64,000 nucleotides of DNA. Origin: Paenibacillus mendelii (GTDB taxonomy: Bacteria; Bacillota; Bacilli; Paenibacillales; Paenibacillaceae). Below are positions 2,257 through 64,000 of this stretch, in pieces. Position 1 is the first letter of the stretch. Each line of letters starts with the position of its first letter. The notes beneath the pieces were generated by a model. It did no database searches. It was not told where the DNA came from and worked only from the letters and a program-made list of their open reading frames with translations. The translations under genes and the position numbers were made by a program. The stretch is from positions 124,001 through 188,000 of the forward strand of contig NZ_JANHOF010000001.1 of the NCBI RefSeq assembly GCF_024498075.1, read 5' to 3'.

Positions 2257-2276
2257 ATTGTGTTCGAAAGAGTATA

Positions 2277-2711
2277 TTACTGGAATGCGGTTGCCAAGAT
2301 CGATTCAAAGCTTTGTGGTGGTTGGCCAGACAGTTTCTCAATGTCTCCAGTAACGATATCAAAGTCCCCATTAGAGAAGTTCTGTTGAATACTCACAATG
2401 CTAGTGATAACGTCTGTCGGAAGTCCCATCTGCTGGAGCTGTCCTTGGAGCATCTCAAGTGGCAGTGTCATGAACGCCAATGGTTTACCGCTAGCTTTAG
2501 CGATAGCACCAGTCATACTTACTGATCCGGTCCCTGTATAGATTGCACCATTATGACCTTCGCTGACCAGAAGTCCGGCTGCAGCTGCTGCGAGGTCGTC
2601 GCGTGAGAGAAAGGCGACTTTGTTTTCAGTGAGACCCGTGAGCACGCCATGTGCTAAAGACATCTGTGCTTCCTTAATGATGGCCTCTGCATAGTAGTTC
2701 ATACGCAGTAT
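2277..2711 (-). pseudogene. 5'-truncated NmrA/QorB-type NAD(P)H reductase
   Basis: The readable frame starts at an ATG at 2702 and gives 141 residues that correspond to the C-terminal half of NmrA-like SDR family NAD(P)H:quinone oxidoreductases (QorB type, normally about 285 residues). The N-terminal Rossmann half with GxxGxxG is absent. Homology-like sequence (ILR before MNYY) continues three codons upstream of the ATG, and a stop lies a few codons further, so this is a 5' deletion rather than a small gene. The residual product would lack the cofactor-binding core. A terminator still follows it. The family assignment rests on remembered pattern similarity. Confidence 0.65.
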
Positions 2712-2789
2712 GTCCTGATCTTCAACGGTACCCCTCTATTCTTACGTCAGACGAAGATCGTCCGTAAATGTGCCGGCCGGCACCTTTAC

Positions 2790-4379: not shown

Positions 4380-4467
4380 CGGCTTACCCCTTTTTAATCT
4401 CCAAGTTTAAATGAAAGAGACAATACCCTGAAATGTCCCTTCCCTCTTTTTACGAACAATGATCCAT

Positions 4468-5051
4468 TTACTTTACATGTTCCATCGCCCTTTTTCGGAA
4501 GAGAATTCGGTTGAACAATCCTGCGGGCATGTCGTATACCGCATTGGCAGCCGTACAAGCGACAACGTGACGGCCTGCGTAAAGAGGATCGACAAACTTA
4601 GTACTTCTCAACAGCGTCTCTTCCGTAAAACCCGTTTTCGCCAATGCTTCGTCGAGCTCTTTCTTTGCCGCCTGCTTAGCCTTGAACAGCATCATCTGCA
4701 CCCGGCTGTAAACGTTGATCGCCCCGTCGCCGGTCGTCTCGATCGGCAGAAAGATAGCATCAGGGTATCTTTCGGTGATCAACGGTTGGACACCGTCCGA
4801 TACGCCGGAAGATGGCATGCATCCGAATGGCTTGACGGAGATGGTCATATTGACTTTTCGTTTGACCACGTTCAGAATCAGTTTGCCTACTTCCATATGG
4901 CCTTCTCCGCCTCGCAGCTGGTTGTTGTAATGGTCATGCGCAACCCTTGGATATCTCATCCGTGTCAGGCAAATGATAACCGTGAAGTCTGATCATCCGG
5001 GCGTAGGTTTTGAAAATGGATTCCCCGGTCGGCAAGTGCCAGCATGCATAA
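4468..5051 (-). pseudogene. frameshifted C-terminal relic of an acyl-CoA dehydratase activase-related protein (DUF2229/BadF-type)
   Basis: The last about 150 residues of a much larger family (typically well over 1000 residues) are readable. They include KPFGCMPSSG and ETTGDGAINVYSR, patterns I associate with the C-terminal region of 2-hydroxyglutaryl-CoA dehydratase activase-related proteins. Upstream, a second frame from about 5051 encodes LPTGESIF and ISKGCA. It must shift near 4936-4943 to join HDHYNNQ, so the gene is broken by an indel there. Further upstream (5052-5220) other minus-strand frames give open stretches with stops and no clear match. Everything N-terminal to this is gone. It is non-functional as it stands unless the frameshift is a sequencing error. 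Confidence 0.6.
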
Positions 5052-5354
5052 CGTAGGTTTTTTCCCTTTTAATCCGTGATGTCCGGTATCCGCCTCCCGT
5101 AAACTCATCCGCATCCGGGTATCATACCGTCCCGACCAGATAAGGAACAGAATCCAAGCGGTAACCGATCAGAAAGCTGACGAAAAACGAAGTGTCCAAT
5201 TTAAGAAAGATTCTCCGCCGGTGACTTGTTTAAATAAAAAATCATAGTTGGTATCCTGCGTAAAAATATGGCGCTCTATACAAAATACATCTAAATGCTT
5301 AACCGAAGTTTAAGTACCGAAAGAGATACAGACTAAGGAGGCGAGACGAAACCA

Positions 5355-6770
5355 TTGCTTTGGATCATTATTGCTCTCATGGTGTTTATCATCCAAATCG
5401 CATCCATCATCATCGTCGAATATCGCCGACCGAACAAAGCGGTTACTTGGCTTATCGTCTTGTTTATCTTCCCGCTGCTCGGTTTCTTTCTGTATTATTT
5501 CTTGGCGAAAGAATACTCTTGCCAACGTACTCTTCGGCGTAAGAATAATAGGCATTGGAAACAATTCAAGGCCGACCTTATCAATCGGTGCAACCGGCGA
5601 ATAACCAAAGATATGCCCGAGGCAAACGTATGGCGAGAGAACATCATGCATGCATCTCTCAAAAACATAACCTCTGTTCCCATTACGGCTTGCAATGAAG
5701 TGACGGTCTATACCGAAGGGGAAGAAGCCTATGAATCAATGTTGGAATCGATTGCCGCGGCCAAGCACCATATCCATATAGAATTTTACATTATACGCGA
5801 TGATTATCTCGGTACCCGATTCAAGCAGTTGTTGATCCGGAAAGCGCGGGAAGGGATCAAAGTACGGCTGTTATATGATGGGATCGGCAGCCGTCTATTG
5901 GGGAAAGTCTTTTTACAACAGCTCCGGGATGCCGGCGTGGAAACAGGGTGTTTTTTTCCTCCGCTCGTCACATTCTTCGATAAGCGGATCAATTACCGCA
6001 ATCACCGCAAAATCGTGGTTGTGGATGGGAAAATCGGTTTCTTCGGCGGGTTGAATATCGGGGATGAATACGTGGGCAAGGATCCGAAATTCGGTTACTG
6101 GCGGGATACTCATTTCTGCTTAACAGGGGATGCGGTACTGTGGATTCAATATACTTTTTTGACGGATTGGTATTTGGTCAAAGAGCAAACCATAACCGAT
6201 TCTGTGTATTACCCCATTCAGGAATGTCCAGGGAAAGAACTTGTGCAAATCGTAAAAAGCGGTCCGGACGAAACGATACTGGAGCTTATATTCTCCATCA
6301 TCGTCACGGCAAAGAAGCGGATTTATATTGAGACGCCTTATTTCATTCCTGACCCCGGCGTCTTATTGGCTCTAAAAACAGCCGTCATCAGCGGAATCGA
6401 CGTTCGGGTCATTATACCAGCCGTTCCTGATAAAAAACTTATTTATAACGCTTCTTTGTCCTATGTCCAGGAATTGCTGCAGGCAGGAGTACGGTTTTAT
6501 TGCTATCAAAAAGGGTTCATCCATGCCAAAGTGATTATTTCCGATAACTTGGCATGTTCCGGCAGCGCAAATATGGATATGCGCAGCTTTTGCGGACAGT
6601 TTGAACTCAATGCGGTTTTTTTTGACGGGAAGGTTGTTGACCGATTGGTACAGGATTTTTACCGGGATCTTAGCACAAGCAATGAAATTTTGCTGTCCGA
6701 ATTCGAAAAGCGGTCCAGGATTCAGAAGACGAAAGAAGTTTTTGCCCGGTTGCTCTCGCCGTTATTTTAG
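5355..6770 (+). CDS. cls: cardiolipin synthase (phospholipase D family)
   Basis: A 471-residue membrane enzyme that condenses two phosphatidylglycerol molecules to cardiolipin and glycerol. Two N-terminal transmembrane segments (about residues 1-20 and 30-52) are followed by two PLD domains. Each has an HKD motif: NHRKIVVVD (about 216-224) and FIHAKVIISD (His about 389) followed by GSANMDMRS. The size and layout are those of bacterial Cls/YwnE. It uses a TTG start with a strong AAGGAGG at 5336-5342. It is monocistronic, divergent from the upstream relic, and ends at a shared bidirectional terminator. Confidence 0.93.
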   Translation: MLWIIIALMVFIIQIASIIIVEYRRPNKAVTWLIVLFIFPLLGFFLYYFLAKEYSCQRTLRRKNNRHWKQFKADLINRCNRRITKDMPEANVWRENIMHASLKNITSVPITACNEVTVYTEGEEAYESMLESIAAAKHHIHIEFYIIRDDYLGTRFKQLLIRKAREGIKVRLLYDGIGSRLLGKVFLQQLRDAGVETGCFFPPLVTFFDKRINYRNHRKIVVVDGKIGFFGGLNIGDEYVGKDPKFGYWRDTHFCLTGDAVLWIQYTFLTDWYLVKEQTITDSVYYPIQECPGKELVQIVKSGPDETILELIFSIIVTAKKRIYIETPYFIPDPGVLLALKTAVISGIDVRVIIPAVPDKKLIYNASLSYVQELLQAGVRFYCYQKGFIHAKVIISDNLACSGSANMDMRSFCGQFELNAVFFDGKVVDRLVQDFYRDLSTSNEILLSEFEKRSRIQKTKEVFARLLSPLF

Positions 6771-6795
6771 ATTGTGCGGTCTTTTACCAAAAGAA

Positions 6796-6829
6796 AAAAT
6801 CCCACCTTAGCAAGTTAAGGTGGGATTTT
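6796..6829. terminator. bidirectional terminator between cls and the YhcN-type gene
   Basis: A 14-bp perfect stem (AAAATCCCACCTTA at 6796-6809 and its complement at 6816-6829) with a 6-nt loop. A- and T-rich flanks let it serve both converging genes. Confidence 0.9.
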
Positions 6830-6843
6830 CATCGATGTTGGTT

Positions 6844-7470
6844 TTATCGAGCATTCGGAAATATTCTTGCCACCATCTCGTTGAATTGTTCCACAAAGCC
6901 GATAACCGGCCTTCCTTGTTGAACGTCTTCGACATACTTATTGATGCGGTCCGTAAATTGCGGATTCGTGGATACATAGACATTCTGGATATCGGAATCC
7001 GTCTTTCTCACTTGCTTTGCGATCTGATCTTCAATTTCCCGTGTCATTTTCTTTTGATCTTCATCAAGCGCTGCTGCAACATAAGCATTACGCCGAGTAA
7101 CAAGTACATTGGCTCGCTCAACGCCTTTAAGTTTTGTTATATTTTCCGCAGCCAAATTGGCGATTTCAACCTGGTCCTCTGCATTTTTAAGACCATCGTT
7201 GTCATTGTAAGTTCCGAAATTGTTAGTATCGAGCCGGTCATTCCGTTCATCGGTTAATCTCTGATTATCAATATCTCCCAGTGGACGATTAATCCGATTA
7301 TCCGCATCATTGTTACGATCGCGAAAAATTTCAGGTCCTCGGTAATTGTCTCGTGTTTGCTGTCTCACCTGATTATTGTCGGTTTGCGTGTTGGTACATC
7401 CGGTTGCAAACAACATTAGGCTTGTTGTCAACATAATCGAAACCTTAAAAGTGCTCATACGTTTCTTCAT
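6844..7470 (-). CDS. YhcN/YlaJ-family sporulation lipoprotein
   Basis: A 208-residue lipoprotein with lipobox LFATGC followed by an Asn/Asp/Arg-rich linker (about residues 25-95). The conserved C-terminal domain carries ENITKLKGVERANV and AYVAAALD, as in YhcN/YlaJ proteins of the spore inner membrane and germination lipoproteins. An in-frame start 33 codons upstream exists, but the ATG at 7470 has AAAGGAAG at the right distance and opens directly into the signal peptide, so I chose it. It would be expected in the forespore compartment; no sigma-G promoter was resolved. It is transcribed alone toward the shared terminator. Confidence 0.88.
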   Translation of the reverse strand: MKKRMSTFKVSIMLTTSLMLFATGCTNTQTDNNQVRQQTRDNYRGPEIFRDRNNDADNRINRPLGDIDNQRLTDERNDRLDTNNFGTYNDNDGLKNAEDQVEIANLAAENITKLKGVERANVLVTRRNAYVAAALDEDQKKMTREIEDQIAKQVRKTDSDIQNVYVSTNPQFTDRINKYVEDVQQGRPVIGFVEQFNEMVARIFPNAR

Positions 7471-7751
7471 ATGAAGGCTTCCTTTCTTTTTTAGAATAGT
7501 TTTCTCTTTCGAGCCAGTGTCCATACATTCACAATAGCAAGTCAAGTCCGCAGCGAAACTTCTAACCAAACCGGCACAACTTGATCCTCCTCCGGTTCAC
7601 GCATTTTAGAACTCATTTAATTATTTGTTCAAAAGGCCAATATCACACCACGAAGAGTTTTCCACATGAGGAAAAGCACTTTTTCACATTTTTTTCCTTG
7701 AATGATTGGCGGGCAACGGAGTTAAATTATTCTTTGTTAAATTAAAGAACG

Positions 7752-8438
7752 GTGGTGAACATTTATTACATGCCTTTATCTCCACACATGTATCATTGGC
7801 TAGTCCGACCGAAGTGGCTCACAAAAAAATATATACATGACCATATAACAAGCCATTTCCATTTGGAGAACAAGACGGTCCTTGATTTCGGATGCGGCAC
7901 CGGCGCGAATTGCAGCATTTTCAAACCCAGCTTCTATTTGGGCATCGAGCCGGATGTCAAGAGGGTTGAGCTTGCAAATCGGCTGTATCCTAACCATCGC
8001 TTTGTGTCATTTAAAGAAAATAGGATTCCGGTTCAAAATGATTCCATTGACCTTATCTTCATTGTCGCAGTTCTTCACCATATCGACGATGAGCAAATCA
8101 AGCGCTATCTGCTTGAGTTCGAGAGGGTGTTGAAACCGGCCGGGAAAATCATTGTCATGGAGCCGTATTTGTGCGATCGAACAAAATGGAACAACCGGTT
8201 TATGAATTGGTACGATGACGGAGAATATATTCGAAACGAAAACAGCTATTTGAATTTGTTTCAAGCGGGGCAGTACGAGTGCCAAGTATTGAAGAGATTT
8301 ACGAAGTGCTTCCTTTACAATGAGCTATTTTTTACCGCTACCCCCAAAAACGAAATCCCTTCCGATCATTTTACACATGAAGCCTTCCACTACGCTTATG
8401 AAGGAGGTGATTTGGGTGACAGTTTTGTCCCAAGTTAA
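7752..8438 (+). CDS. class I SAM-dependent methyltransferase
   Basis: A 228-residue Rossmann-fold methyltransferase. Motif I is VLDFGCGTGANC (about residues 37-48). LGIEPD follows as the acidic residue that binds the SAM ribose, then IFIVAVLHHI and the post-motif LKPAGKIIVMEP. The substrate is not evident. The start could be GTG at 7752 or ATG at 7770; the second has GGTGGTG upstream. The last 23 nt overlap the DUF1657 gene in another frame, implying translational coupling. Family members of this kind can methylate small molecules, quinones or lipids. Confidence 0.85.
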   Translation: MVNIYYMPLSPHMYHWLVRPKWLTKKYIHDHITSHFHLENKTVLDFGCGTGANCSIFKPSFYLGIEPDVKRVELANRLYPNHRFVSFKENRIPVQNDSIDLIFIVAVLHHIDDEQIKRYLLEFERVLKPAGKIIVMEPYLCDRTKWNNRFMNWYDDGEYIRNENSYLNLFQAGQYECQVLKRFTKCFLYNELFFTATPKNEIPSDHFTHEAFHYAYEGGDLGDSFVPS

Positions 8439-51011: not shown

Positions 51012-51070
51012 TGTAAGTCTCCTCTTGTGTTGGATGTGTTTGTAATATCATCAAGCAAAACGCACTTAGC

Positions 51071-51245
51071 TTACCTTATACGGTTACCCCATTCATCCTT
51101 CGTTATCTGCTTAAACCCAAGCTCATAGAGCGGCGCAACTTGAACCTTCCATTCCTTAGCATTATGAGTGTCAACAGCTACAATATCCAGGTTATCAAAC
51201 GCATACTGTATCATTATATCTAAAGCTTCAACATCTTCACCATAT
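51071..51245 (-). pseudogene. acetyltransferase-like C-terminal relic
   Basis: An open frame without its own start reads ALDIMIQYAFDNLDIVAVDT, then VAPLYELGFKQITKDEWG before TAA 51071. The last part resembles motif B and the end of GNAT proteins. It follows directly on the relic of the nucleotidase-like gene. Family assignment is tentative. Confidence 0.35.
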
Positions 51246-51720
51246 TGATTATACAGAGTGATTGTTCAATTTCTTTCCAATCAAGAACTCTCTGAATATT
51301 CTCATGAACACATTATAAGGTTTGTTTAGCAATAATACGTTGATTCCATTACTCGCTAATTCAATAGCATGTCTCGGGTGATCTTTAATAAATAGGGTCA
51401 CTTCTAGCTTCTTCGCGCTTCCGCTTTACCTTCTGTATGTTCAGAAGCACAATGATACTCTTCAATAGCTATGCTGTCTTTCTTGATCCACTCAATGGCA
51501 GAATCCATCCATTCTGTTGCCGGGCGGTAATTAATACAAGCTTCCCTTTATCACTCAGCTTCTTAATTACTTCAACTACGCTGCCTTCAGGTTTAATTTG
51601 GTTCAAATGAAATTGATTTGTAGAAAAGAAACTAAAAAATTGATTAAAATCATACTGATACAAATCTGAAACTTCATATAATAACTCGTGTAAAACGTGT
51701 TGTTTAAGCGGGATTACGTC
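51246..51720 (-). pseudogene. HAD-type 5'-nucleotidase-like gene with several frameshifts
   Basis: Successive minus-strand frames read YQYDFNQFF, EVIKKLSDKGKLVLITAR (HAD motif II with its Thr), then after one shift TEWMDSAIEWIKKD. After a further shift comes LFIKDHPRHAIELASNGINV (motif IV: the Asp and the conserved strand), then RVLDWKEIEQS. At least two indels and a TAG interrupt it. The order of pieces matches 5'(3')-deoxyribonucleotidase-like HAD phosphatases; the N-terminal DxDxT region was not found. Confidence 0.6.
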
Positions 51721-51735
51721 TTAATTGGTCGCTCT

Positions 51736-52060
51736 TTACTTATGGTATGGATGGTTATTGATGCAGTAAGCTCGGTAAATTTGTTCAATAATAATAGTCA
51801 CTTTGAGTCCAATATCCATTCCCATAGGGCTTAGTGCTAATGTTTGGTCAGATGGAATGCACTCCGGCTCCAATTATAACCGCTACATCAGACCTACCTG
51901 ATGTTCCCAACTCATCTATTCTAGAAGCAAATTGTTCAGAAGATAGCATTGTGCCATTTGTATGTATAAGTATTTTATAGGACTTATCAGTAAGTTTATT
52001 CACTAGTTGTTCTTCCCGCTTCATGTGGTGTAATTGCCACCCCAAGGAAGAATAACTTGT
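51736..52060 (-). pseudogene. RlmH-like (23S rRNA Psi1915 methyltransferase-type) relic
   Basis: Fragments in two frames: MKREEQLVNKLTDKSYKIL, LSSEQFASRIDELGTSGRSD and AVIIGAG in one, then IEQIYRAYCINN with PYHK at the end in the other. The shift falls near 51850 where the first frame ends. YRA..I..N.PYHK is the signature C-terminus of RlmH (about 159 residues), which methylates the pseudouridine at position 1915. The N-terminus is cut near 52050. The functional copy should be elsewhere; this is a decayed second copy. Confidence 0.6.
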
Positions 52061-52352
52061 ATTAAACCTACAGTGGGATTATTGTCATCAATATTCCGCC
52101 ACTAAACCTAAATATAATGAGACGAAGGTAACCGAGAAATTGGCACCTTCGTCTTTTTGTTGTGCTTCCTCAGTGTTACCTAATTCCTTAAGTCCGTGTT
52201 CTATCCCCTATCACCAAGAAACTTATCCACTACCTCAGATTTATTTTACAAACCCATTTAGTTGATCTTCCCAACCTGCGAGGCATACGCTATCATATTA
52301 CATCGCCATATTTATACGGTAACAGCGATAAACTACTGAGAGAGGTGATTTC

Positions 52353-52529
52353 ATGGAATTCGTTGATTTCGTTGACAAAGGGTTTGAAGATGCAGTGAGG
52401 ACAGTATTGGGTACGGCACAAGAGTGGTTAACACAGGGGGATATTAATGTTATCAGTGGGATTTTGGTCAGTACAGCAACAGACGCGGGTTCTCCCTGTT
52501 CCTTGGTTGTTAGACACGATTGTCAATAA
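52353..52529 (+). pseudogene. short 5' fragment, possibly of a leucine-rich-repeat protein
   Basis: From ATG 52353 (ribosome site GAGAGAGGTG) about 30 residues read KGFEDAVRTVLGTAQEWLTQ and DINVI, similar to the capping segment before bacterial leucine-rich repeats. The frame then runs into unrelated sequence that in another frame belongs to a FAD oxidoreductase fragment. It looks like a junction of two broken genes. Confidence 0.3.
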
Positions 52530-52646
52530 ACTGGTGGAGGAAGCCGTCCGTACCGGTGTAACGATCTGTCACAATAAGAACGTTATCGAAATTAGTCATG
52601 AGGGGGCCGTCCGGCATATTCTCTTCAACAATGGAGACGGCAAGTA
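52450..52646 (+). pseudogene. middle fragment of an FAD-dependent amine-oxidase-type oxidoreductase, inverted
   Basis: The plus-strand frame reads WLLDTIVNKLVEEAVRTGVT, then EISHEGAVRHILFNNGDG. This is the pattern of the region after the substrate-binding part of phytoene-desaturase/protoporphyrinogen-oxidase-like proteins (V..L...A...G..I.....V..I). It faces the N-terminal piece of what seems the same kind of protein on the minus strand. Confidence 0.45.
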
Positions 52647-52969
52647 GAAACGACAATGCGACGAACCATGGGATCTTCGACCTCTCGGTCTACCCAATCC
52701 GTTAAGCTGACACCGGTTAACTTCTCTAGGTTCATTTTACGCAATTTCAACATCAGATTAATAAACTCCATTTTCCCGGACCATGACATTAAAGTAGATG
52801 TCATCAAAGACAATCCACCTGCCGGCAAAGGGAGGACCTGATTCTGATCCACTACCGCCACCTGACTTTTCCAACAATACAACGGACAAACCGGCTTTGG
52901 CCATTAGAATTGAAGCTGACAAACCAGTTAACCCCCGCCGATGACGGCGACATCAAATTTCCCTTCCAC
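52625..52969 (-). pseudogene. N-terminal part of an FAD-dependent oxidoreductase, frameshifted
   Basis: From GTG 52969 (ribosome site GAGGTGATCAG) the frame reads FDVAVIGGG and hits a stop. One base on, LTGLSASILMAKAGLSVVLLE continues the dinucleotide-binding motif. A second shift leads into LSWSGKMEFINLML-like sequence and LTDWVDREVEDPMVRRIV, then ends at about 52640 where the opposite-strand fragment begins. This is the N-terminal third of a CrtI/HemY-like NAD(P)/FAD oxidoreductase. Confidence 0.6.
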
Positions 52970-53175
52970 ACCTGATCACCTCATTATCAATATAATGGTA
53001 ATTTTTATGATAGCATGTCTATTTTATGAAGATTATATGAAAACACACAAAAAAAACGAGTCCCTCACTTTGGTAGTCCCTCGCCTCATTCACTATTTCC
53101 AAATTTGAAAAATACAGCAGTTAATCGATAGGTAACCTTTACATTTCGAAGTTTTCCCTTCCAGCAAATAGTCGA

Positions 53176-53376
53176 GTGACTGTTGCTGTTCTTCCAAACA
53201 TTTTACAAAAGATCACTGGAGTCAGCAATACACAATTTTTGAGAGCGATATTAAGGGAGTTAACAAAACGTGGTGTCTTCTATCCAGGCTTAGTTTCCGA
53301 GCTAAGGAGAACGGTTACTTTCCGAAAAAATCTATCAGATCATGCATATGTTTTCTTTATTGAGTGGAGGTTCTAA
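53176..53376 (+). CDS. doubtful small ORF
   Basis: Sixty-six codons (NTQFLRAILRELTKRGVFYP...) without a clear ribosome site and without a family I recognise. It may be a relic like its neighbours. The rest of 52970-53657 holds no supported gene. Confidence 0.2.
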   Translation: MTVAVLPNILQKITGVSNTQFLRAILRELTKRGVFYPGLVSELRRTVTFRKNLSDHAYVFFIEWRF

Positions 53377-53413
53377 TGCATGATACAAAGAGACTTAAAA
53401 AATTTCCCGCTAT

Positions 53414-53440
53414 AGGCGGAAAGAGCCGCCTTCTTTTACT
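53414..53440 (+). terminator. orphan terminator-like hairpin
   Basis: AGGCGG (53414-53419) and CCGCCT (53426-53431), followed by a T-rich tail (TCTTTTACTTTTG). Confidence 0.5.
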
Positions 53441-53657
53441 TTTGTTCAACTGTTGAAGCATATTATCTACCAAGGAGAGATCACCAGGTAAAGCCTGTGG
53501 GTCCCCACCATTGTTGGGCCAATTCCGAATCTGTCCAAGCAGCCCACAACTCTAAGGAGCTTTTATATGGGGAGCGGTAGCTGCTCAATTTCTGATGATT
53601 TGTATCATGGTTAGACAGTTCGAACCATCCACTTATTGGGCCCGGTAAATGTCATTG

Positions 53658-54133
53658 TCAACGTTTGATGAATTTCCACTTACTGTAAGTCAACAAACGC
53701 CATACCCATTCTACCGGTCCGAACTTGTATCTACGTAGCCACAACTGGCTAGCCCATACTTGAACGACAAATATAAGAACAGAAAGTACAAATCCCCATA
53801 ACGGCGAAACCTCTCCGTATAATCCAAGACCGAAGCTGTAAAATATAAAGGTACAGATAATAGATTGCAATAAGTAAATTGTAAGTGCCATACGTCCTGC
53901 TGCTTGCAAGGGATTTAGTAGCTTCCGCCATATTTTATTCTGGATCAATAGTAAAAACGAGGTTATATAAAATATACTGAGCGCTGGTCCAGAGATGAGT
54001 ACACCTGCAAAATGCGCATAGTTATATCCACTATTCTCGGTATCGACTGTTGTATATAAGAAAAATTGAAATAAAGCTCAGCGATTCGTTCGCCCCGATT
54101 AACTGGATTCAAATCTACTTGGTTATAATCCAT
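53658..54133 (-). pseudogene. DUF418 membrane protein with an internal deletion
   Basis: The N-terminus (ATG 54133, AAGGAG 9 nt ahead) encodes DYNQVDLNPVNRGERIAEL, the start of DUF418 proteins just before the conserved LDxLRG. It then jumps, out of frame, to LFQFFLYTTVDTENSGYNYA and continues as an intact C-terminal half (FAGVLISGPALSIFYI, GRMALTIYLLQSI, FGPVEWVWRLLTY) to 53658. About 200 central residues including several transmembrane helices are missing. It is transcribed after the HxlR relic, its likely former regulator. Confidence 0.7.
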
Positions 54134-54215
54134 GCTCTTCATCTCCTTGGCTCGTATCAAACAGTTTCTGCAGAAGCGTGATCGTTATATCGACCCCTTT
54201 TTCAAAAAAATGCGA

Positions 54216-54378
54216 GAATATTTGAAGAAATACCCTCCTCGGAATCTAAAAACTCACCAAAAGTTTTCTTACCAAAATAGACGATATCACGCACAATGAG
54301 CAATGACCAGTTATTGCCAAAAGTCTCCAACGAGAAATTAATCGGGCAATGTGATTATTATCTGAACGGTGGATTCAT
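54216..54378 (-). pseudogene. HxlR-family regulator relic
   Basis: From ATG 54378 the frame has two consecutive stops, then SHCPINFSLETFGNNWSLLI, VRDIVYFGKKTFGEFL and SEEGISSNIL, the first half of an HxlR winged helix with its conserved Cys. A stop at about 54216 and loss of register end it. It lies immediately upstream of the DUF418 relic on the same strand. Confidence 0.65.
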
Positions 54379-54767: not shown

Positions 54768-54813
54768 TACGACCGTTTCCCGGTAAAGAATGAAATAGTG
54801 GGAAACGGTCGTA
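54768..54813 (-). terminator. terminator of the giant gene
   Basis: TACGACCGTTTCCC (54768-54781) and its complement (54800-54813), a 14-bp perfect stem with an 18-nt loop. The minus-strand transcript continues AATTTTGC. It lies 48 nt past the giant gene's stop. Confidence 0.8.
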
Positions 54814-54861: not shown

Positions 54862-57800
54862 TTACAGCGTATAACCCGGGATGTCTAAGACCGTGCGCTC
54901 AGGGGATGCCTTCCCCGCTTCCCGCAGCACCAGGCTGTCCGGATCTATGCTGGTATTGTCACGCCGATAGGTCCAGGTCAATCGATAGGATCCTGCATCG
55001 GGGACGATCACGAACACGCCCGTTCCGTCCCGGTTGCGGATCACCTTCGCGGGTGTATTCCCGTACAGTGCGCCGGAAGGAAACTTGCGGTTATGCAGAA
55101 TGCCCGCGCTTCCTGCCTGCCGGAGCCGAACCCTAACCCCGCCATTCCGGAAGCGAATCGTTCCCGCTTCATCAAGAGCGGCGGCGGATCGGTGCAGCAT
55201 ACCCGCCTCGGCGGCGTCCGGAATCTGACCGGAACGGACCCGAATTTGCGTGCCTGCCGCATACCGTTTCTCACGCCCGAACCGGTAATAGGTCGCCCAT
55301 GCCGGCGCAGCCACGCAAACTTCCTCGAACCGGGCACCGGGATCACCTGATGCGTAAAGCCCGATACTACCGGAAGGAATGTCTCCGTCCTCAATGCGGA
55401 ACAGCGGGTAGCCGTCCAAATATCCCGACATGACCGGTCCGTCCAGATCGACTGTGAACAGGTGCCGCTGCCCCTTCGCGATGCTGCTTCCTTCTCCCCA
55501 CAAGTATGTCTCCACGCCGTTCTTCCTTTTGACGACCAGACTCGCCCCACCCGGCATCGAGGAGAATTTATAAAAGTTATTATCATCCTTATATCGGAAG
55601 ATAACGCCTATCGCACCGTTAGCCTCAGTCCGAAGAACGACGCTAATGCGGTAATCCGTCCAGCCGGCATCACCCGCGAGCGCATAGGTGCCGCGCTCGT
55701 TAGGATCCGCAGCCGGCGTACTGACCTTGCCAGTCTGCAGCAGCTCCTCTCCGCTGCAGCTCCAGCTGCCTTCGCCTTCAGCCTCCGGATCGGTTGCGAA
55801 GGTCCAGCATCCGGGAACGAGGGCGGCGAAGGAATCTGTCAGTAGCCAATCCGAGAAGGCGAGCTCAATGGGGTACAGCTCTACCCGCGAGAATCGTATG
55901 TCCGTGCCTCCTGAACAGAACAAACCGATGCTTCCTGACGGGATATCCTTATCGTTGACAACGAATGCCGGAACGTCGTCGATGAATCCCCGAAGCTCCG
56001 AACCGATCGCTATAATCGTCAATTCGTAAGTTTGGCCGAGCTGGTAACTATTCCGATCCTCCCATAGGACCATGGTGATTCCCGCCTGGCGCTTCACCAA
56101 TCTTCGGAAGCGGGCCCCTTGGTCCATCACGAAGCCGTAATAGTCGCCTGGTCCCGCGAAGCGGAACAGGAGTCCCATGATCCCTCCGTTCATTGATCGA
56201 AGCGCGGCCTTGATTATCAAATCTCCCTTTGGGGTTCCCGGCAAAATAGCGGCTGCGCCGGATAGCGCCGGTTTGGCATCCAAACCGAATAGAGTCCCCG
56301 TCTGTCGCAGTTCGCCGTCTGTCGTTCCCCAACTCGCCGTTCCCCACACGCTACCTAGATTAGGGAACGTCCATCCGGCCATGTCGCCGGTGCGGAAACG
56401 GTCGCGGAACAGCGCTTTCGCCGACAATGGCGGCCGAACGACCTCGACGCGCTCGAACCTCGCCCCGTTGTTCTGTGAGCTGTACAGGCCGACTTGACCT
56501 GAGCCATGCGTTCCGTCCGTCAGCTCGAACAAGCGGTTCCCGTCTACGTATCCGGTAAGCCGGTTCCCGACGGCATCCACCGTGATTGTGAACGGTATCC
56601 CTTGGACATAGCTTCCGCTCGCTTCCCATAGTACGGATGCCGCGCCGTCCTTCATGCGAATCAGACGACGGAAGGCCCGCTTCTGATCGAGCGATAGCCT
56701 GTAATAGTTAGACGGATCCCGGTAGCGGAACATAACGCCGATAGCGCCGTCTCCGTCGGAGCGGGCCTGCACCTGCAGCCGGTAATCCCGCCAGTCCGAT
56801 CGGCCGGATACGGCATACGTTCCAGGCGCGGCTAGCATTGCCGAGCCATAGACGCCTGAGCGTTGTTCCAGCGATCCATCGCCCAGCATCCAGACCGAAG
56901 GAGCATTCAGCTCGCCTTCGTCCCGGATCGTCCATCGGCCGACGCGGCGCACGGACTCCATTACGGCTATCCGTTCAAAGGAGGCCGCGATATTCGCGCG
57001 GGTATACAGTCCGATTCTCCCTTGGCCGATCGCCCCGTCATTGACGCTGAACAACGGCAAGCCGTCCAGATGGCCGATCAGCTCGCTCCCGTTCATCGTT
57101 ATCGTAAGCTCATAGCTATGGTTGCGGACGTAGCGCACTTTGTCCTGCCACAATACCGTCTCGATACCCGCGACGCGGCGGACCAGCTTCCTGAAGCTCC
57201 GTTCCTTATCCATCACGAAGATATAATAATGATCCGTATCTTCATATCTAAAAATGACGCCAATCGCGTCGTTATCCTTGGAACGCAGACGCACCGAGAG
57301 GACGATGTCCCGCCATTCCTGAGGCCCTCCGATTGCAACGGTGCCCGGCTGAACGATATCTTCGTTGAAGCCGTAAATATTGCTGTCCTGGACGATCGAT
57401 CCGTCTGCCGCTTGCCAATTCGACGGACCGTCATAAGCGTACGGCGCATCTGAAATCTCGAACCCGCCCAAGACGTCGTCATCCAGGAACGCATGCCAGA
57501 GCAGCGGCGAGTTCGCCAGTGCCTCTACACTCAAGGCTTCGAAGTGGGCGTCGAGGTTGGCCCAGCAGTAGAACCCGATTTGTCCGGACGCCAGCTCCCC
57601 ATCCTTTAAGCAGAATAGAAGCTCGCGGTTCAGATAACCGATCAGCAAATCTCCGAACATGTCAATCACAAGCTCATAGCGGACCCCGACTTGATAGGAG
57701 ACTTTGTCTTCCCATAAGACGGTCACATTGGCATTGCCGCCGCCTGCTTTTCTGATGAGGCGGCGGTATCTGCGGTCTCGGTCCATCGAGAAGCGATAGT

Positions 57801-60800
57801 AATGGTTCGGGTCGCGGTAGCGGAACACGAGTCCGATCGCGTCGTCATCGCCCGAACGCAGCGCTGCCCGCACCCGGATATCTGTCCATGCGGCCGACCC
57901 CGTGATCGCGAGCGTGCCCGGCTTCTCCGGATCCTTATCACCCCCCGACCCGCCGTACAGATTGCGCAGCTGCACGAGGTGGCCTGACGCGATTCGCCAA
58001 TCCGACGGCCCGTGGCTTCTCCCTTCGTCCACGATCGAATAATGATCCAGCGCGTTCGGGCCGAAATCCTCCACGAATAGCATACCGGAATCACGGTCCG
58101 CGAAGTCGTCCAGCAGAAGCGGTCCGTCGTCCGATGGATTCGCAATAGGCCCGGGCGGGCATGCATATTCAATGCTCAGGTTCGACAAGTCGGAGGGCTC
58201 CCTGAGCATCAAGGTCACATGCTCATCGCTCGGCTGAGAGGAACCGGAAACGGCGCCGATCGCCTTAATCTCTTCTGGCCGGACCTGCGGCGCGGGCATC
58301 TTTAGCCCCGCCAGACCAACCTGGAGGTCCGTGCGGCTCCAAACAATCGGTTCTGGACTGCGAAGCAGCAGCGCGCGCACCTTTCCTTGGGATTCGATCC
58401 TCTCAATCTCGACCCTGCCGCTTGGTGATTGTGCGATAGCACAGGCCAATTCTCCGATTAAAGCCTCGTAGCTACGGTACTCTACATCCGACGGTACTGC
58501 CTGCGGTGAGACAGCTTCGGCTTCATACGCTGCCCACGCCTTATCCGTCATACTCTCCGCGGCAACCGGCCAAACCGCATCCTGATAGCTGTGAAGGTGA
58601 TGGACAAAATTCGCAAAAGACGAAGTAGTAAACGAGTACCGATAGACCGCCGGGGCATCCATCCGGTAATCCTCCACCCGTACGTCGCTGAAACGCGTCC
58701 CCAGGTTGCCCCAGGCATACAGACCGATGCTGCCCGCGTCATTGGAACTATCGGTGACGGCGAATACCAGCGTCCCGTTCATATAGACCTTCAGCGAGTC
58801 CCCCACCACCTCGATCGTGATCAGCTCATCCCGATCGGGCACGTAAACGTAATCATCCTCAGCCAAAATCGTATGGACACCGCCGAAGACCCTTATGAAT
58901 CTGCGGTACTTGCGCTCCCGGTCCATAACGAACCGGTAATGGTGCTTATGATCGCGGAAGCGGAAGACGACGCCGACCGCATCGTCGTCCATCGAACGGA
59001 GATATGCGCTGAACTTGTAATCCGTCCATCGGGACGGTTGGTCGCGATGGGACGCAGGCAGATTCCGATCTTCGCCGATCAGCAGCATCGTGCCTGGCTT
59101 GTTAGGATCCGAGCGCAGCAAGTTCCCTCCCCAAATCTCGGTCAGCGACTCGATCCAACGGCTGCCTTCAGCGGCATTCTCCCGGACTTCCCAACGAGAC
59201 GGGCCGGCATACTGGCCTTCATCAAGCACCTTCCAGCGTCCGAGCGTTCCGGCAGGGCCCGAAACGATGGTTCCGGTGGGCCAATCGCCGAAGTCGTCAT
59301 GCCACAGCAGCGGCACAAGCTTGGCTTCATAAATGGTATCAGCATCCAAGACGTGAGGAGCGGCGGACAACGTCACGCTGCGAAGGATGGGATCCTCGTC
59401 GACAGACACGCATTTGCTTTGATTAACCAGCTTCAGATGGCGAATCTCGCTCCGGGTCAAATTCAATTGATCGCTCCGTCCCCAAAGATTGGACAAGGAG
59501 ACGAGCCTGCCTTCCGCATCCCGGACGGGCCGGTTATTGTTGTCGTACAAATACAGCCCGAGATCCCGCCGGTCGATACGATACATAAGGTCGACATAAT
59601 CTTCGTTAAACGCGACGCCGACATCGTAAGCGCGATAGACCGGCTTCGGCAGCATCGGCTTCTCGCCCTCGCCCGGCACGGTGGGCGGTACCGTCTGTGC
59701 AACATACCGCTTTAGATCGTCCAATCCGCTGACGAAACCGTCCGGGCTCTGTCCGGCGGGAATCGACAGCTTCGCCAGACCCGGAGGTCCTTCCGTACGG
59801 AAATAGACGTATTTCTTCTGCTCCTCCACCCGTTTAACATAAGAGAGCTCCCTGAGCCCTTCCGCCTGGACGGTGGCAATCACCTTCAGACGGTAGGTTG
59901 AATTCGGCAGGAGCACTTCACCGCTCTGCGACCATCGCGCCGTTTCGGAGACCATATGTTCGGTCATCGTTTGGCGGCGCACCGCTTCGACACGGTCGCC
60001 TTCTTCTCCGGCGCAGATGCGGAACAGGTGGATTTGGTAGCCGCCCGTCAGCTCCACGCGGACAATTCCGAGCCCCGTCAATTCCAAACGAGGATTGTCG
60101 GCGGCACCGCCGTTGTAAGGGCCATAGGCCTTGCCGTTCCCATCATAAGCGGTCACGGAAACGCCTTCCACGTCCGTCACGACGAGTTCGACGCGGTCGA
60201 CGGGCTTAGGCAGCGCGATCGAAATGACATTTCGTACGGATTGCATCGGGCCCGAAGGCGCACGTGACGGAAAGATCAGTGCATTCTTCAACCCTGCTAC
60301 CGCGCTCGCGACCGTCACGACGCTCTGCTTCGCCGGAGCCATCCAGCTCAGCGTAAAGCTGCTCGGCTGCGATGACGTCCAAGGCGATATCAAGATGGTA
60401 TTGCTGGGCTGCCGCTCAAAGTCGAGGCAAGCTCTCTCGCTGGGTACGGGCGGGATACACGGATAATCCGCATACTCCTCCGTGAACCACTCCTCCCATG
60501 ACCCGTTCGTATGCCGGGAATAGTTGAACGGCGAGCGCGACCACAACCACAGCTTTGTCTGCGCCGTGAACGCGCCTTCTCCGCTCGGCAGCTGCGGAAC
60601 CGGCGCCCAGGAGCCCCACAGCTTCTCCGCACCGGCAGGCGCCCCAGCCGTTGTTTGGGCGATCGTCTCCCACACCGTGCCGTTTTTGCGCTGCAGCTCG
60701 ATCGAATTCAGCGCATACCTGGCTTTCATCGGACCTTCGCCCTTGTCCGGGTCGCCCACCGTCTCCCACGGAACCGGCTGCGGATTGACTCCGGCGAACG

Positions 60801-63423
60801 CATCGTCGTTGACCGACCGGCTGAAGGTCAGATGCGGGCGCACGTCGAGCGGCACGACCGGAATCGCCGCCGGATTCGGTTCGACGCCTTCGTCCATGTA
60901 GGGAACCGGCCATCCGGCCGTTACCTTGAAGTGCTCCAAGGTGGCTTCCTGCAGAGGCTTCGGCAGAGCCGGCTCTTTAGGCTCCGGCCCCCACTCCAGC
61001 TTCACGTCGGCAGTCAGGTCGGGAAGCGGCCACGGCAGCTCGAGCGAAGAATGCAGCTCGCCAAGCAGATGGAAGGGATCGAACACGTCCGCCGACAGCT
61101 TCGCGTCCGCCGAGATCCCGAGCCCGATGCCGAATGCGGATAGCTCGAGCTTGCCATGCAGCCAGACGTCGCCGTGGAAATGCGCGGGCCTGAAGCTGAT
61201 CGCCGCGTTTCCTTCCAGCCATGCCTCGACCACGAGCTTCAGCGGACCGAACTTCCAGCTCTCGTCGTAGCCGATCCATGCGCCCATCGCCAGCGAGCGG
61301 GCATCCAGCATGAAGTAGGCATTGGCTTCGAACAGTTTGAACAGCTCGGCGCGAATACGCTTATCGCGAGGCTCTTTCTCTCCCAAATACAGGTGCCAAG
61401 CCGAGGCGTCCTGGAAGTTGAAGTACGCTTCCGCACCTCCGCGAATGTCAATGAGTTCGCCGCCTATCCCGTATTTATAGCGGGCGTCCAGACCGACCTC
61501 CAGCATGCCCGCCCGGTTGTCGATGACCGCGAGCGCTCTGAACGTAGGATCATCGCTCAGTTTGGCCCGATCCTGGAGCAGGTTCGCCTTGCCTTCAATC
61601 AGGATAATCGGTCCCGGGAATATGATGACGAGCAGCATCTTGCCCGAGAACGTAAACCCGTTGTCCGCTACCGTGCCGATTGTCACGCCGGCACCGAGCG
61701 CGAGACTGTCTTGGTTGTTCTTCCATTTTTCTTTAAGCTTTTCGATGCCGGCAGGCGTTCTTTTGTACCAGTGCTCATACCATTCTTCCTCCGGCTTCCT
61801 ATTCGGCTCCATTTGATAGGCGAACAGGCCGGACAGCCCGTACAGGGCAAGCCCCGTCGACCAGAGCGGAATGCCCGCCGGAAGCTCCGCCCCCAAATAC
61901 AGGGCGAAGAAGTTATACCCGTTCGTCGATCCGATGACGATCGTCGCATCGAGCTCCAATCCGAGCGAAGGAAGCTTCACCCGGATGTCTCCGTCGAACC
62001 GGTTGATGTCGTTCCCCGCCTCCTTCAGCTTTCGGTAGGATACTGCGCCCTTGAATTGCAGCGTCCCGGGGATTTCAAGTTCAACGCCTACGCCGTTCAT
62101 AGAAATGCCCGGCGGCCTGCCGGACCCGTCGTCGTACCATGTGACACGCAGGCCTTCGACCGATGCGCCGGCTGGCAGCCCGTCTACCAGCTTGAGCCCG
62201 CCGGAGAACCCGATCCAGCTGCCGCCGTCGTCGCTTTTGCCAAAGCCTAGCTTCGTAATTTCGAGACGGAAGCCGTACAAATTGAATGCATATTGCTCGC
62301 GCAGATTCAGCCATCCGCCCTCGAGGCGCACGTTGCCGTCCGAATCGACGGCGAGCTCCTCCACTTTGAAGGCAGGCCAATCGAGCGCGGGCGCGCCGAA
62401 GGTAGGACGGACCTCCCCGCTAAGCATAGCGGTGAACTTCCCGTCCATCAAGCGGAAGCCTAAGCTATCCAGCTTCATCGTTAGCACGGAATTACTGACG
62501 GCTGCCAGCCCGCCGGCTGCATTCGCCAGCTTCACCGTCACGCCTCCGTCGCCGATTCCGAGGTCGACGTCGACAGGCGCATTGAAGAAGGGCAGCGTCA
62601 TCCGTCCGCTGATCTTGGAGGCCGTTAGCGCGTTCTGCCGGAAGGAGATTTCCGCCTTGCTCAGACTAAGTCCCATGCCGAACAGCTGCGCCGATAGCGC
62701 CGACCCCCAGACGGCGCTGACGCTGCCGGAGAACCCGCCGTTGCCGATATAGCCGTTAGTCAGCTCCAGCTGCCCGACGATCTCTGCCAGCTCGCCGGGC
62801 AAATATAGTCCTGCCTTGGCGATATGAAAGCCTCTCCATCCGGCAGGCATGCCCGGCGGCGGGCTGTTCGCGTCCAGAAACAGGCGGATGTCTTTAGCTT
62901 CGATGACAATCCCGGTGCTGCCGATGAAACAAGGCGGCAGATCGATACTGACTCCCCCGCTGATCCCGAAGTTGCCGTCCATGTCCATGGATATCGTTAC
63001 TTTGGCAAGCGTGATATCCACATGATCGGCAGCGGGATCAGGTTCGAACGTATCCGGCTTATCCGGCAATTCCGCATGCAGCATGCGCGCCGGCTTTAGA
63101 AGGCTCGCATCGAGGCGCAAGCAAATCGGGACGTCGATAATCCGGACGGTCGGTACCGGTTCGGACTCGAACCTGAAGTGAAAGGCAGAATGGGAGCCTC
63201 CCGGAGCAAACACGAGCTTCAGAGCGTCCAGTCCCGGAATGCCGACGGCGAGCTCCGTCTCGAACAGCACACCGGTATTTACGGTAAGGGACGGTTCGCG
63301 TATCATTTCCAACGGCTCGATCCATATGCGTTCGAAAGCTTCAAGCGGCGGAGGGTCCAACAGGCTCTTCGGCCACATGGATTCCACGTAGCGGCGAAGG
63401 GAAACGTATGCGGTCGTACTCAT
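54862..63423 (-). CDS. giant 2853-residue beta-rich protein with six lectin-like C-terminal repeats
   Basis: No signal peptide, no transmembrane segment and no catalytic motif that I recognise. Residues about 1-830 are beta-rich with recurring Gly/Leu/Asp strands (GISGGVSIDLPP, FFALYLGAELPAG, TGLALYGLSGLFAYQM, ELSAFGIGLGISADAKL), resembling the large DUF6603-like proteins, though I cannot verify this. Residues about 830-1370 look like Ig/FN3-type linker domains (WLWSRSPFNYSRH, NSTYRLKVIATVQ). Six concanavalin-A/LamG/DUF1080-like repeats follow at about 1371-1584, 1769-1964, 1978-2154, 2159-2328, 2338-2513 and 2528-2704, then a C-terminal beta tail. AAGGAGGATGG precedes the ATG. It lies 22 nt after a PLD-family gene, so the two form an operon. 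GC content is clearly higher than in the rest of the window. Function unknown. Confidence 0.88.
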   Translation of the reverse strand: MSTTAYVSLRRYVESMWPKSLLDPPPLEAFERIWIEPLEMIREPSLTVNTGVLFETELAVGIPGLDALKLVFAPGGSHSAFHFRFESEPVPTVRIIDVPICLRLDASLLKPARMLHAELPDKPDTFEPDPAADHVDITLAKVTISMDMDGNFGISGGVSIDLPPCFIGSTGIVIEAKDIRLFLDANSPPPGMPAGWRGFHIAKAGLYLPGELAEIVGQLELTNGYIGNGGFSGSVSAVWGSALSAQLFGMGLSLSKAEISFRQNALTASKISGRMTLPFFNAPVDVDLGIGDGGVTVKLANAAGGLAAVSNSVLTMKLDSLGFRLMDGKFTAMLSGEVRPTFGAPALDWPAFKVEELAVDSDGNVRLEGGWLNLREQYAFNLYGFRLEITKLGFGKSDDGGSWIGFSGGLKLVDGLPAGASVEGLRVTWYDDGSGRPPGISMNGVGVELEIPGTLQFKGAVSYRKLKEAGNDINRFDGDIRVKLPSLGLELDATIVIGSTNGYNFFALYLGAELPAGIPLWSTGLALYGLSGLFAYQMEPNRKPEEEWYEHWYKRTPAGIEKLKEKWKNNQDSLALGAGVTIGTVADNGFTFSGKMLLVIIFPGPIILIEGKANLLQDRAKLSDDPTFRALAVIDNRAGMLEVGLDARYKYGIGGELIDIRGGAEAYFNFQDASAWHLYLGEKEPRDKRIRAELFKLFEANAYFMLDARSLAMGAWIGYDESWKFGPLKLVVEAWLEGNAAISFRPAHFHGDVWLHGKLELSAFGIGLGISADAKLSADVFDPFHLLGELHSSLELPWPLPDLTADVKLEWGPEPKEPALPKPLQEATLEHFKVTAGWPVPYMDEGVEPNPAAIPVVPLDVRPHLTFSRSVNDDAFAGVNPQPVPWETVGDPDKGEGPMKARYALNSIELQRKNGTVWETIAQTTAGAPAGAEKLWGSWAPVPQLPSGEGAFTAQTKLWLWSRSPFNYSRHTNGSWEEWFTEEYADYPCIPPVPSERACLDFERQPSNTILISPWTSSQPSSFTLSWMAPAKQSVVTVASAVAGLKNALIFPSRAPSGPMQSVRNVISIALPKPVDRVELVVTDVEGVSVTAYDGNGKAYGPYNGGAADNPRLELTGLGIVRVELTGGYQIHLFRICAGEEGDRVEAVRRQTMTEHMVSETARWSQSGEVLLPNSTYRLKVIATVQAEGLRELSYVKRVEEQKKYVYFRTEGPPGLAKLSIPAGQSPDGFVSGLDDLKRYVAQTVPPTVPGEGEKPMLPKPVYRAYDVGVAFNEDYVDLMYRIDRRDLGLYLYDNNNRPVRDAEGRLVSLSNLWGRSDQLNLTRSEIRHLKLVNQSKCVSVDEDPILRSVTLSAAPHVLDADTIYEAKLVPLLWHDDFGDWPTGTIVSGPAGTLGRWKVLDEGQYAGPSRWEVRENAAEGSRWIESLTEIWGGNLLRSDPNKPGTMLLIGEDRNLPASHRDQPSRWTDYKFSAYLRSMDDDAVGVVFRFRDHKHHYRFVMDRERKYRRFIRVFGGVHTILAEDDYVYVPDRDELITIEVVGDSLKVYMNGTLVFAVTDSSNDAGSIGLYAWGNLGTRFSDVRVEDYRMDAPAVYRYSFTTSSFANFVHHLHSYQDAVWPVAAESMTDKAWAAYEAEAVSPQAVPSDVEYRSYEALIGELACAIAQSPSGRVEIERIESQGKVRALLLRSPEPIVWSRTDLQVGLAGLKMPAPQVRPEEIKAIGAVSGSSQPSDEHVTLMLREPSDLSNLSIEYACPPGPIANPSDDGPLLLDDFADRDSGMLFVEDFGPNALDHYSIVDEGRSHGPSDWRIASGHLVQLRNLYGGSGGDKDPEKPGTLAITGSAAWTDIRVRAALRSGDDDAIGLVFRYRDPNHYYRFSMDRDRRYRRLIRKAGGGNANVTVLWEDKVSYQVGVRYELVIDMFGDLLIGYLNRELLFCLKDGELASGQIGFYCWANLDAHFEALSVEALANSPLLWHAFLDDDVLGGFEISDAPYAYDGPSNWQAADGSIVQDSNIYGFNEDIVQPGTVAIGGPQEWRDIVLSVRLRSKDNDAIGVIFRYEDTDHYYIFVMDKERSFRKLVRRVAGIETVLWQDKVRYVRNHSYELTITMNGSELIGHLDGLPLFSVNDGAIGQGRIGLYTRANIAASFERIAVMESVRRVGRWTIRDEGELNAPSVWMLGDGSLEQRSGVYGSAMLAAPGTYAVSGRSDWRDYRLQVQARSDGDGAIGVMFRYRDPSNYYRLSLDQKRAFRRLIRMKDGAASVLWEASGSYVQGIPFTITVDAVGNRLTGYVDGNRLFELTDGTHGSGQVGLYSSQNNGARFERVEVVRPPLSAKALFRDRFRTGDMAGWTFPNLGSVWGTASWGTTDGELRQTGTLFGLDAKPALSGAAAILPGTPKGDLIIKAALRSMNGGIMGLLFRFAGPGDYYGFVMDQGARFRRLVKRQAGITMVLWEDRNSYQLGQTYELTIIAIGSELRGFIDDVPAFVVNDKDIPSGSIGLFCSGGTDIRFSRVELYPIELAFSDWLLTDSFAALVPGCWTFATDPEAEGEGSWSCSGEELLQTGKVSTPAADPNERGTYALAGDAGWTDYRISVVLRTEANGAIGVIFRYKDDNNFYKFSSMPGGASLVVKRKNGVETYLWGEGSSIAKGQRHLFTVDLDGPVMSGYLDGYPLFRIEDGDIPSGSIGLYASGDPGARFEEVCVAAPAWATYYRFGREKRYAAGTQIRVRSGQIPDAAEAGMLHRSAAALDEAGTIRFRNGGVRVRLRQAGSAGILHNRKFPSGALYGNTPAKVIRNRDGTGVFVIVPDAGSYRLTWTYRRDNTSIDPDSLVLREAGKASPERTVLDIPGYTL
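55310..59310 (-). repeat. six tandem diverged domain repeats within the giant gene
   Basis: Each unit of about 170-215 residues carries PGT.a..G...W.D......RS.d.dAIG..FRYrD..hYYrF.MDr.r.yRRLIR, then W.d...Y, Y.L......L.GylDg..LF...DG....G.iGLY and a final aRFe.V.V. Units 1-4 keep the aromatic/acidic signature best, and units 5-6 are more degenerate. Divergence at DNA level argues against recent duplication. Confidence 0.85.
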
Positions 63424-63445
63424 GATCCATCCTCCTTCGTCAATA

Positions 63446-64000
63446 TCAGAGCGTTAGCGGCTCGCGCGAATCATAGTCCGACAAGTCATACAGCGCATCC
63501 GAAGAGGCCGGCGGGAAAACGAGAGTATGCTTCTTGATATAGGCCGGCAGCGGGCATGGGGGAGCCACCGTCCCCCACGTGGATTCCCAAACAGCGAGCG
63601 CGGCGTTCAAATCGAGAAGTGGCAGCCGCGGCGCCCCGACGGTCAGTCCGAAATGGCCTCCCCATAAATCCGCCCTCGTCTTCTTCGCAAGCAGGTCATC
63701 CTCGTCCAGCACGCCGACGGACAGCTCCCCGTCGGTATATAAGCTCCTTCGCATGCAATTGGCCGAACCGATGAACAGCCAATGATCGTCGACGATCGTC
63801 ACTTTCGAGTGAACGATCGCTCCGTGTAAGAAGACGCCCAGGCGAGCCAAGTGAGCGGGTTGAAGCCCTTTTATCAAGTGATCCCGCAATGCCGTCTCTT
63901 GCCATGAATTGGGCGGATCGTTCGGATCGGGAGCGCCTGTCAGCAGAAGCACCTTGACGGAGGCGTTCGTCTTCAATTTATCGTTCAGCCAGCCCATAAT
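63446..64000 (-). CDS. phospholipase-D-family protein (5' end beyond window)
   Basis: The C-terminal about 184 residues are visible and the frame stays open to the window edge, so the start lies outside. The second HKD motif is present as VHSKVTIVDDHWLFIGSAN (HxKxxxxD plus GSAN), followed by RRSLYTDGELSVGV, characteristic of PLD/nuclease-type phosphodiesterases that attack phospholipids or nucleic acids. The visible start-like ATG at 63997 is internal. Its TGA is followed 22 nt later by the giant gene. Its base composition matches the giant gene and not the rest of the window. The biochemical substrate is not known. Confidence 0.85.
   Translation of the reverse strand: MMGWLNDKLKTNASVKVLLLTGAPDPNDPPNSWQETALRDHLIKGLQPAHLARLGVFLHGAIVHSKVTIVDDHWLFIGSANCMRRSLYTDGELSVGVLDEDDLLAKKTRADLWGGHFGLTVGAPRLPLLDLNAALAVWESTWGTVAPPCPLPAYIKKHTLVFPPASSDALYDLSDYDSREPLTL

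Follow-up and report, generated by a model that had tools for sequence, protein, structure and literature searches.

The 64,000-nucleotide stretch of Paenibacillus mendelii analyzed here (the window; contig NZ_JANHOF010000001.1, positions 124,001 to 188,000) ends within a three-gene module of ~14 kb that encodes a giant protein, a phospholipase D (PLD)-superfamily protein and, outside the window, a third large protein, hereafter the partner. Comparing loci across genomes, we found that the conserved core of this module consists of the giant and the partner, and that the gene between them is exchangeable, PLD being one occupant. We place the core in giant and partner rather than in PLD because the occupant of this slot varies while the partner is constant. 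Since no family or system that we tested accounts for the giant–partner pair, we take the module to be of a new kind. Its elements are:

Window 54862..63423, minus strand: giant gene, 2853 amino acids, ATG start, AGGAGG upstream
Window 63446..64000, minus strand: 3' part of the PLD-superfamily gene, with its stop at 63446 and continuing past the window end
G000:C1:189074-193345, minus strand, outside the window: partner (third) gene, 1423 amino acids
Window 54768..54813, minus strand: terminator-like element, a perfect 14-bp inverted repeat followed by ATTTT, 48 nt past the giant stop

The full PLD gene encodes 532 amino acids (G000:C1:187446-189044, or L005:10447-12045); it is spaced 22 nt from the giant, and the partner gene, which is upstream, ends 29 nt before its start. 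The original prediction, made on the window, described a closely spaced two-gene unit on the minus strand. Pair and spacing stand, but looking beyond the window, as it had proposed, revealed the partner upstream of PLD and thus an operon of three genes. The GC-rich island that it noted is equally real (GC 0.589 versus 0.397 and 0.368 in the flanking 1-kb stretches) and coincides exactly with the three genes, whose individual GC is 0.570-0.595; the highest value among 106 2-kb windows over window positions 1-54861 is 0.524. The inverted repeat and ATTTT, read by eye, form a terminator-like end of the operon.

We observed the partner upstream of the giant in 22/29 loci of a main set composed of the window's locus, 24 from genome_contigs, three from Mycetohabitans and one haloarchaeal. 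In six partnerless loci (L009, L010, L016, L018, L022, L029) the contig ends within 2.9 kb of the giant, and the 2.9 kb present in L022 contain no match to the partner, to PLD or to MID, a second slot family described below. The other partnerless locus, L019, is disrupted: its giant lacks the first residues, and the gene that comes next upstream looks by eye like a transposase. Linkage was also evident from exact coincidence of contig size among the best 120 listed relatives of each protein (120, 119 and 118 values, with the window's own rows and one row lacking a contig excluded), a measure of presence on the same contig and not of adjacency: we counted 24 giant–partner pairs (0.28 expected by shifting) and 12 giant–PLD pairs (0.14 expected by shifting), with all three genes in 5.

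In the 22 loci with a visible partner, the slot is occupied by PLD in 10 (L005, L007, L008, L011, L014, L015, L030, L031, L032, L061; three are one genus), by MID in 8 and by another protein in 1, with nothing in 3. The original prediction had cast PLD as the defining partner of the giant, and had named homologs without a PLD neighbor as the observation that would speak against this. Such homologs make up 12/22 loci, so that PLD as an obligate partner is rejected, and the gene-neighborhood search that it had suggested returned PLD in 10/22 and the partner as the constant companion; the proposed role of the giant as a scaffold for the PLD enzyme thus survives only as that of a scaffold with an exchangeable slot protein, and its PLD-specific form falls.

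MID proteins share a common N-terminal domain, with leave-one-out searches finding 8/8 members at E values of 1e-16 to 1.4e-3, always below the best nonmember. Their C termini comprise a beta-helix class (L017, L023, L026, with PF13229 in L017 and L026), a class with a KCN motif (L006, L020, L027) and two singletons; one MID C terminus, searched against plasmids, had no match. By eye, the N-terminal domain had been considered a degenerate M23 peptidase, and some C termini of MID and of the L028 slot protein papain-type or GH19 enzymes; Pfam and PDB sequence searches supported neither assignment. In the slot-protein searches of the PDB, the best match linked L013 slot-protein residues 83-150 with a distal tail protein (E 0.018). 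The remaining occupant, from a planctomycete (L028:6169-8886, plus strand), is a 905-amino-acid protein matched by neither the PLD nor the MID profile; it carries at its C-terminal end a GRGLIQ stretch that is GH19-like by eye, without database support. In haloarchaeal locus L024, the last 4 bases of the partner lie within the giant open reading frame (ORF) as called, an overlap that would be compatible with translational coupling.

The slot PLD belongs to the PLD superfamily (cardiolipin synthase, NucT, DrmC): it has the same two HxK motifs and matches PF13091 and PF00614 above cut-off. The H and K of both motifs are invariant in 120/120 aligned rows (the window's own protein plus 119 of the listed best matches of 172), as is the D of the second motif, while that of the first is not conserved. 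Sequence matches in the PDB were to two phospholipases D (E 5.7e-6 and 4e-4). With none of the 7 NCBIfam models listed, however, does the protein reach the curated cut-off (e.g., 31.8 versus 290 bits for cardiolipin synthase). A PLD relative also occurs on Paracoccus sp. SMMA_5_TC plasmid pNSM5TCa (L066, record 119012-144864; pld hidden Markov model [HMM] E 6e-140), in an operon with five paralogous 745-818-amino-acid proteins lacking Pfam matches above cut-off, a tyrosinase, trypsin-like proteases and EAD1/STAND-type NTPase genes; L066 is possibly another undescribed conflict cluster.

The giant consists of a beta-meander including DUF6603 (residues ~33-811), a conserved middle (~850-1460) and six LamG-type repeats. 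We mapped its parts to the window as follows:

60991..63327, minus strand: predicted long up-and-down beta-sheet, residues 33-811 (AlphaFold2 predicted local distance difference test [pLDDT] 74.6, predicted TM score [pTM] 0.44)
60904..62151, minus strand: DUF6603 core modeled alone, residues 425-840 (pLDDT 78.0, pTM 0.72)
61585..61653, minus strand: conserved hydrophobic hairpin LLVI.FPGPI.L.EG, residues ~591-613
55354..59286, minus strand: LamG/PF06439-type repeat region, residues ~1380-2690, limits approximate

The lectin-like repeats announced by the original prediction correspond to six LamG-type motifs (residues 1482, 1862, 2053, 2227, 2415 and 2604) and a PF06439 match (E 1.9e-23). It had further described the N-terminal half as beta-rich and of unknown fold: beta-rich it is, but the part in question contains DUF6603 (Pfam PF20248, residues 417-825), which scores 28.9 bits against a gathering cut-off of 27 and is itself a family of unknown function. 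The structure prediction that it had recommended for the N-terminal region gave beta-meander models for both residues 33-811 and 425-840, and the N-terminal third is predicted to form one long amphipathic beta-meander. The strand amphipathicity of this sheet is 2.38, compared to 1.28 +/- 0.15 (maximum 1.85) in 500 shuffles, these averages being drawn from an alignment that includes the L016 row in a wrong frame. The same wrong-frame row, at 25% identity, is present in alignment A2 (used for the 1000-residue model and the genome scans); alignment A5 excludes L016, and the P-G-P of the hairpin is invariant in all of its 22 rows. With its predicted long amphipathic beta-meander the giant resembles ApoB beta-belts, LptD and porin barrels in topology only, and the top Foldseek match of the DUF6603 core was ApoB100 (E 1.4e-3, TM 0.22, root mean square deviation [rmsd] 24). 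It differs from them in the large rmsd and in that the core profile found no sequence match in the PDB; because the rmsd is large, we do not regard membership in any of these folds as established.

Pfam gives the window's partner nothing above cut-off (best E 0.1). Of the 13 partners that we scanned, 2 contain a Laminin_G_3 domain and 6 carry short modules matched by tail-fiber PHROG families, as does protein P0002. Besides a titin chain, discussed below, the partner profile matched two PDB chains at E 0.01 and 0.043, one of which we take to be an Fn3 entry, and the end of the partner may be, weakly, Fn3-like. This profile matched 125 of the 394 genomes of the window's family, over its whole length only in the window's genome. 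Because the other listed matches cover only its last part (~1178-1420), we consider this part a common module and the scan uninformative on co-occurrence. The profile gave no match in G311 and G312, genomes with divergent DUF6603 genes. We also read ten divergent DUF6603 loci beyond the main set, L043 among them. In L033, L062 and L063, several parts of the partner HMM match a partner-like gene downstream; in L044 and L046 only the common Fn3-like part does so, beside an LRW-type motif seen by eye; and in L034, L042, L045 and L047 such a gene was recognized by eye alone, weakly so in L034. We thus consider the giant–partner pairing secure for the main set but less certain for the divergent loci. 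In L034 (Paracoccus aminophilus pAMI4), the very divergent DUF6603 gene (locus 430-8094) is annotated "outer membrane protein," and the 1114-amino-acid protein beside it is faintly partner-like.

None of the three proteins has a signal-like N terminus, their 15-residue hydropathy maxima being 1.04 (giant, in agreement with the original prediction), 0.50 (PLD) and 0.45 (partner). Across loci, a hydropathy-window test, cruder than a signal-peptide predictor, found a signal-like N terminus in 0/56 proteins (22 giants, 20 partners, 6 PLD, 8 MID), with a highest 15-residue window of 1.71 in the first 60 residues; 11 control ORFs from the same loci reached at least 2.3, having been picked by a signal-like pattern and that threshold. 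For several proteins the start site was taken from the longest ORF and possibly lies too far upstream. Ten more proteins, including the window's PLD, gave 0/10, all at most 1.71, so that by this test 0/66 proteins show the N-terminal export signal of a classical secreted adhesin. Delivery as cargo of a contractile injection system (extracellular contractile injection system or type VI secretion system) is not supported in the window's genome, which has no tail sheath (PF04984, 0 matches); this domain is absent in 7/11 module genomes and present in 4/11.

The module is sporadic and rare across Bacteria and Archaea. Searching proteins with residues 1-900 of the giant, we obtained 554 matches out of 8000 candidates scored, with 46-59% identity among the best 120. 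In genome_contigs we located giant relatives at at least 24 loci, a lower bound obtained with two peptide patterns, in Actinobacteria, Alphaproteobacteria (including Candidatus Paracaedibacter symbiosus, an amoeba endosymbiont), Paenibacillus, Chloroflexi, Haloarchaea, a myxobacterium, Bacteroidota, a planctomycete, a spirochete and a Gemmatimonadota bacterium, showing conservation across phyla. Genome scans for the giant matched 7/394 genomes of the window's family (the window's own plus six divergent proteins), 5/293 in the order of the Halogranum genome (including this genome itself and one other already known), and 1/396 and 1/398 in two sampled phyla, in each case the center genome itself. 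The window's genome has one match for the giant N-terminal part and one for the partner; a PF20248 family search of this genome gave no match though the alignment search did, which we take as a failure of sensitivity. The giant matched 14 plasmid records, 3 of which cover 80% or more of the query; all of the four best are from Mycetohabitans. In the three of these four copies that we inspected, the genes run partner-PLD-giant, and each copy (3/3) has transposase or integrase genes close by. Short peptide patterns found no relative of giant, partner or PLD in viral_contigs, and the single match for the giant in phage records is LamG-only; these searches thus do not support the module as part of a phage or prophage, short tail-fiber modules in partners notwithstanding.

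A tree of 21 giants, built with a quick method (12/18 inner branches starred, 11 rows flagged for odd composition), requires 5 changes of slot label, compared to a minimum possible of 3 and a mean of 9.8 with shuffled labels (0/200 as low as 5). Slots are thus mostly inherited, with occasional exchange; for PLD and for MID alike, the starred branches require no fewer than 2 changes. Archaeal rows need one change, with L021 and L025 close together. The tree joins Paenibacillus ginsengarvi to a Rhodobacteraceae bacterium (SH-aLRT 100) and not to the window's row. Given such cross-phylum branching and the GC island, the module has apparently moved horizontally. Beside the island lies an AT-rich stretch (window 51012-54368, ~37-42% GC in 2-kb windows) with no listed ORF of at least 100 amino acids. 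In L002 (8183-10108, minus strand), a 641-amino-acid protein with a Tat-like N terminus (SRRRFVSAIG), beta-helix/pectate-lyase-like by eye, is encoded ~2.7 kb upstream of the partner gene.

Our searches of the open-licence literature turned up no account that presents the module as a system, in agreement with the original prediction, no mention of DUF6603, PF20248 or IPR046538, and nothing relevant-looking on LamG/PLD/DUF1080 combinations and giant genes. In the parts available to us, PMC5877345 and PMC7159879 have nothing on the module, the latter (an eLife paper on conflict systems) with 0 occurrences of PLD and LamG. In Burkholderia (Mycetohabitans) rhizoxinica, plasmid pBRH02 encodes three large hypothetical proteins that the 2011 genome paper PMC3102044 mentions as possible type IV secretion system substrates; one of them has a PLD domain. 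This cluster, which has the same partner-PLD-giant order, appears to be the same as the window's, and RBRH_03371 would be its PLD, the plasmid record having one PLD place. The sections of PMC3102044 that we saw give the cluster no function, and treat it in one organism rather than as a cross-domain module with an exchangeable slot.

Among known systems, DISARM, which would have DrmA/DrmB with the DrmC PLD, was rejected, as a PADLOC scan of the three module proteins gave only weak PLD-domain matches to the DrmC, MkoB and MkoC models and no match for the two large ones. Tc (ABC) toxins offer an analogy only: their components lack signal peptides and the third is always present, and the module likewise combines a giant, a second large protein and, where MID fills the slot, a third protein whose C terminus varies, all without a signal-like N terminus. 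It differs in its predicted architecture and in the absence of the slot gene in 3/22 loci, and the Pfam scan of the three proteins found no Tc component domains.

We tentatively propose that the three genes encode one large assembly, a reading that we consider possible rather than probable. Giant, partner and slot protein would associate; the amphipathic sheet of the giant would bind or insert into lipid; LamG repeats, together with the Fn3-like and tail-fiber-like modules of the partner, would hold the assembly to a target surface; and the slot protein would supply an activity, here that of a two-HxK phosphodiesterase on phospholipid or another phosphodiester. Since no protein has a recognizable signal, the assembly would leave the cell by lysis or another nonclassical route, and our best guess is that it would then act on neighboring cells or hosts, in antagonism or host contact. 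Several observations weigh against this proposal. We recognized neither genes for release or immunity nor a toxin domain, and the action of PLD on lipid is itself conjectural. The structural matches of the DUF6603 core extend to topology only (rmsd 8-14 A by VIA, Foldseek TM at most 0.32), and the partner profile matches a titin chain at E 1.5e-12 by whole-chain score, with no single stretch below 0.1. The slot is empty in haloarchaeal loci L021, L024 and L025, beta-helix and no-Pfam occupants weaken the label "enzyme" for the slot as a whole, and the Paracoccus plasmid carries its PLD relative with neither giant nor partner.

The missing signals fit an intracellular role equally well, and the strongest rival is a lipid-handling or membrane-protection machine, in which an ApoB-like belt or groove would work inside the cell while PLD and other slot proteins remodel lipid or envelope. 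ApoB100 as top match of the core and the setting of the Paracoccus PLD relative, among no-Pfam proteins beside EAD1 and STAND-type NTPase genes, point in this direction, but that match has the TM and rmsd given above, and LamG, Fn3-like and phage-tail-fiber modules are typical of extracellular or surface-binding proteins; we thus hold an intracellular machine to be rather unlikely. These six LamG repeats, and the right-handed beta-helix slot proteins with PF13229, would suit a surface scaffold or adhesin that leaves the cell by a nonclassical route and displays an enzyme serving to degrade polymers or to attach, with no killing involved. This we judge unlikely: it leaves the amphipathic sheet unexplained, no N terminus is signal-like and no 19-residue stretch exceeds 2.3 mean hydropathy, with no search made for sortase motifs or other anchors. 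The sheet could instead close into a giant transmembrane barrel or pore, outer-membrane-like or in a target membrane. The predicted topology it shares with porins and LptD comes with the large rmsd and low TM already noted, the proteins have no signal for Bam-type insertion, and the module occurs in a Paenibacillus, in actinobacteria and in archaea, which lack a classical outer membrane; a barrel therefore seems to us improbable.

If the released assembly that we propose is real, the module could represent a new class of effector particle in Bacteria and Archaea, with a giant/partner chassis and slot effectors exchanged as genes (PLD, MID N-domain fusions), released without a known secretion pathway, although we regard this broader claim as doubtful. 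A mobile, cross-domain module of ~14 kb dedicated to three signal-less proteins implies a costly and specialized function, and it would place DUF6603 in a context, provide a candidate prokaryotic lipid-engaging fold and present a naturally swappable slot.
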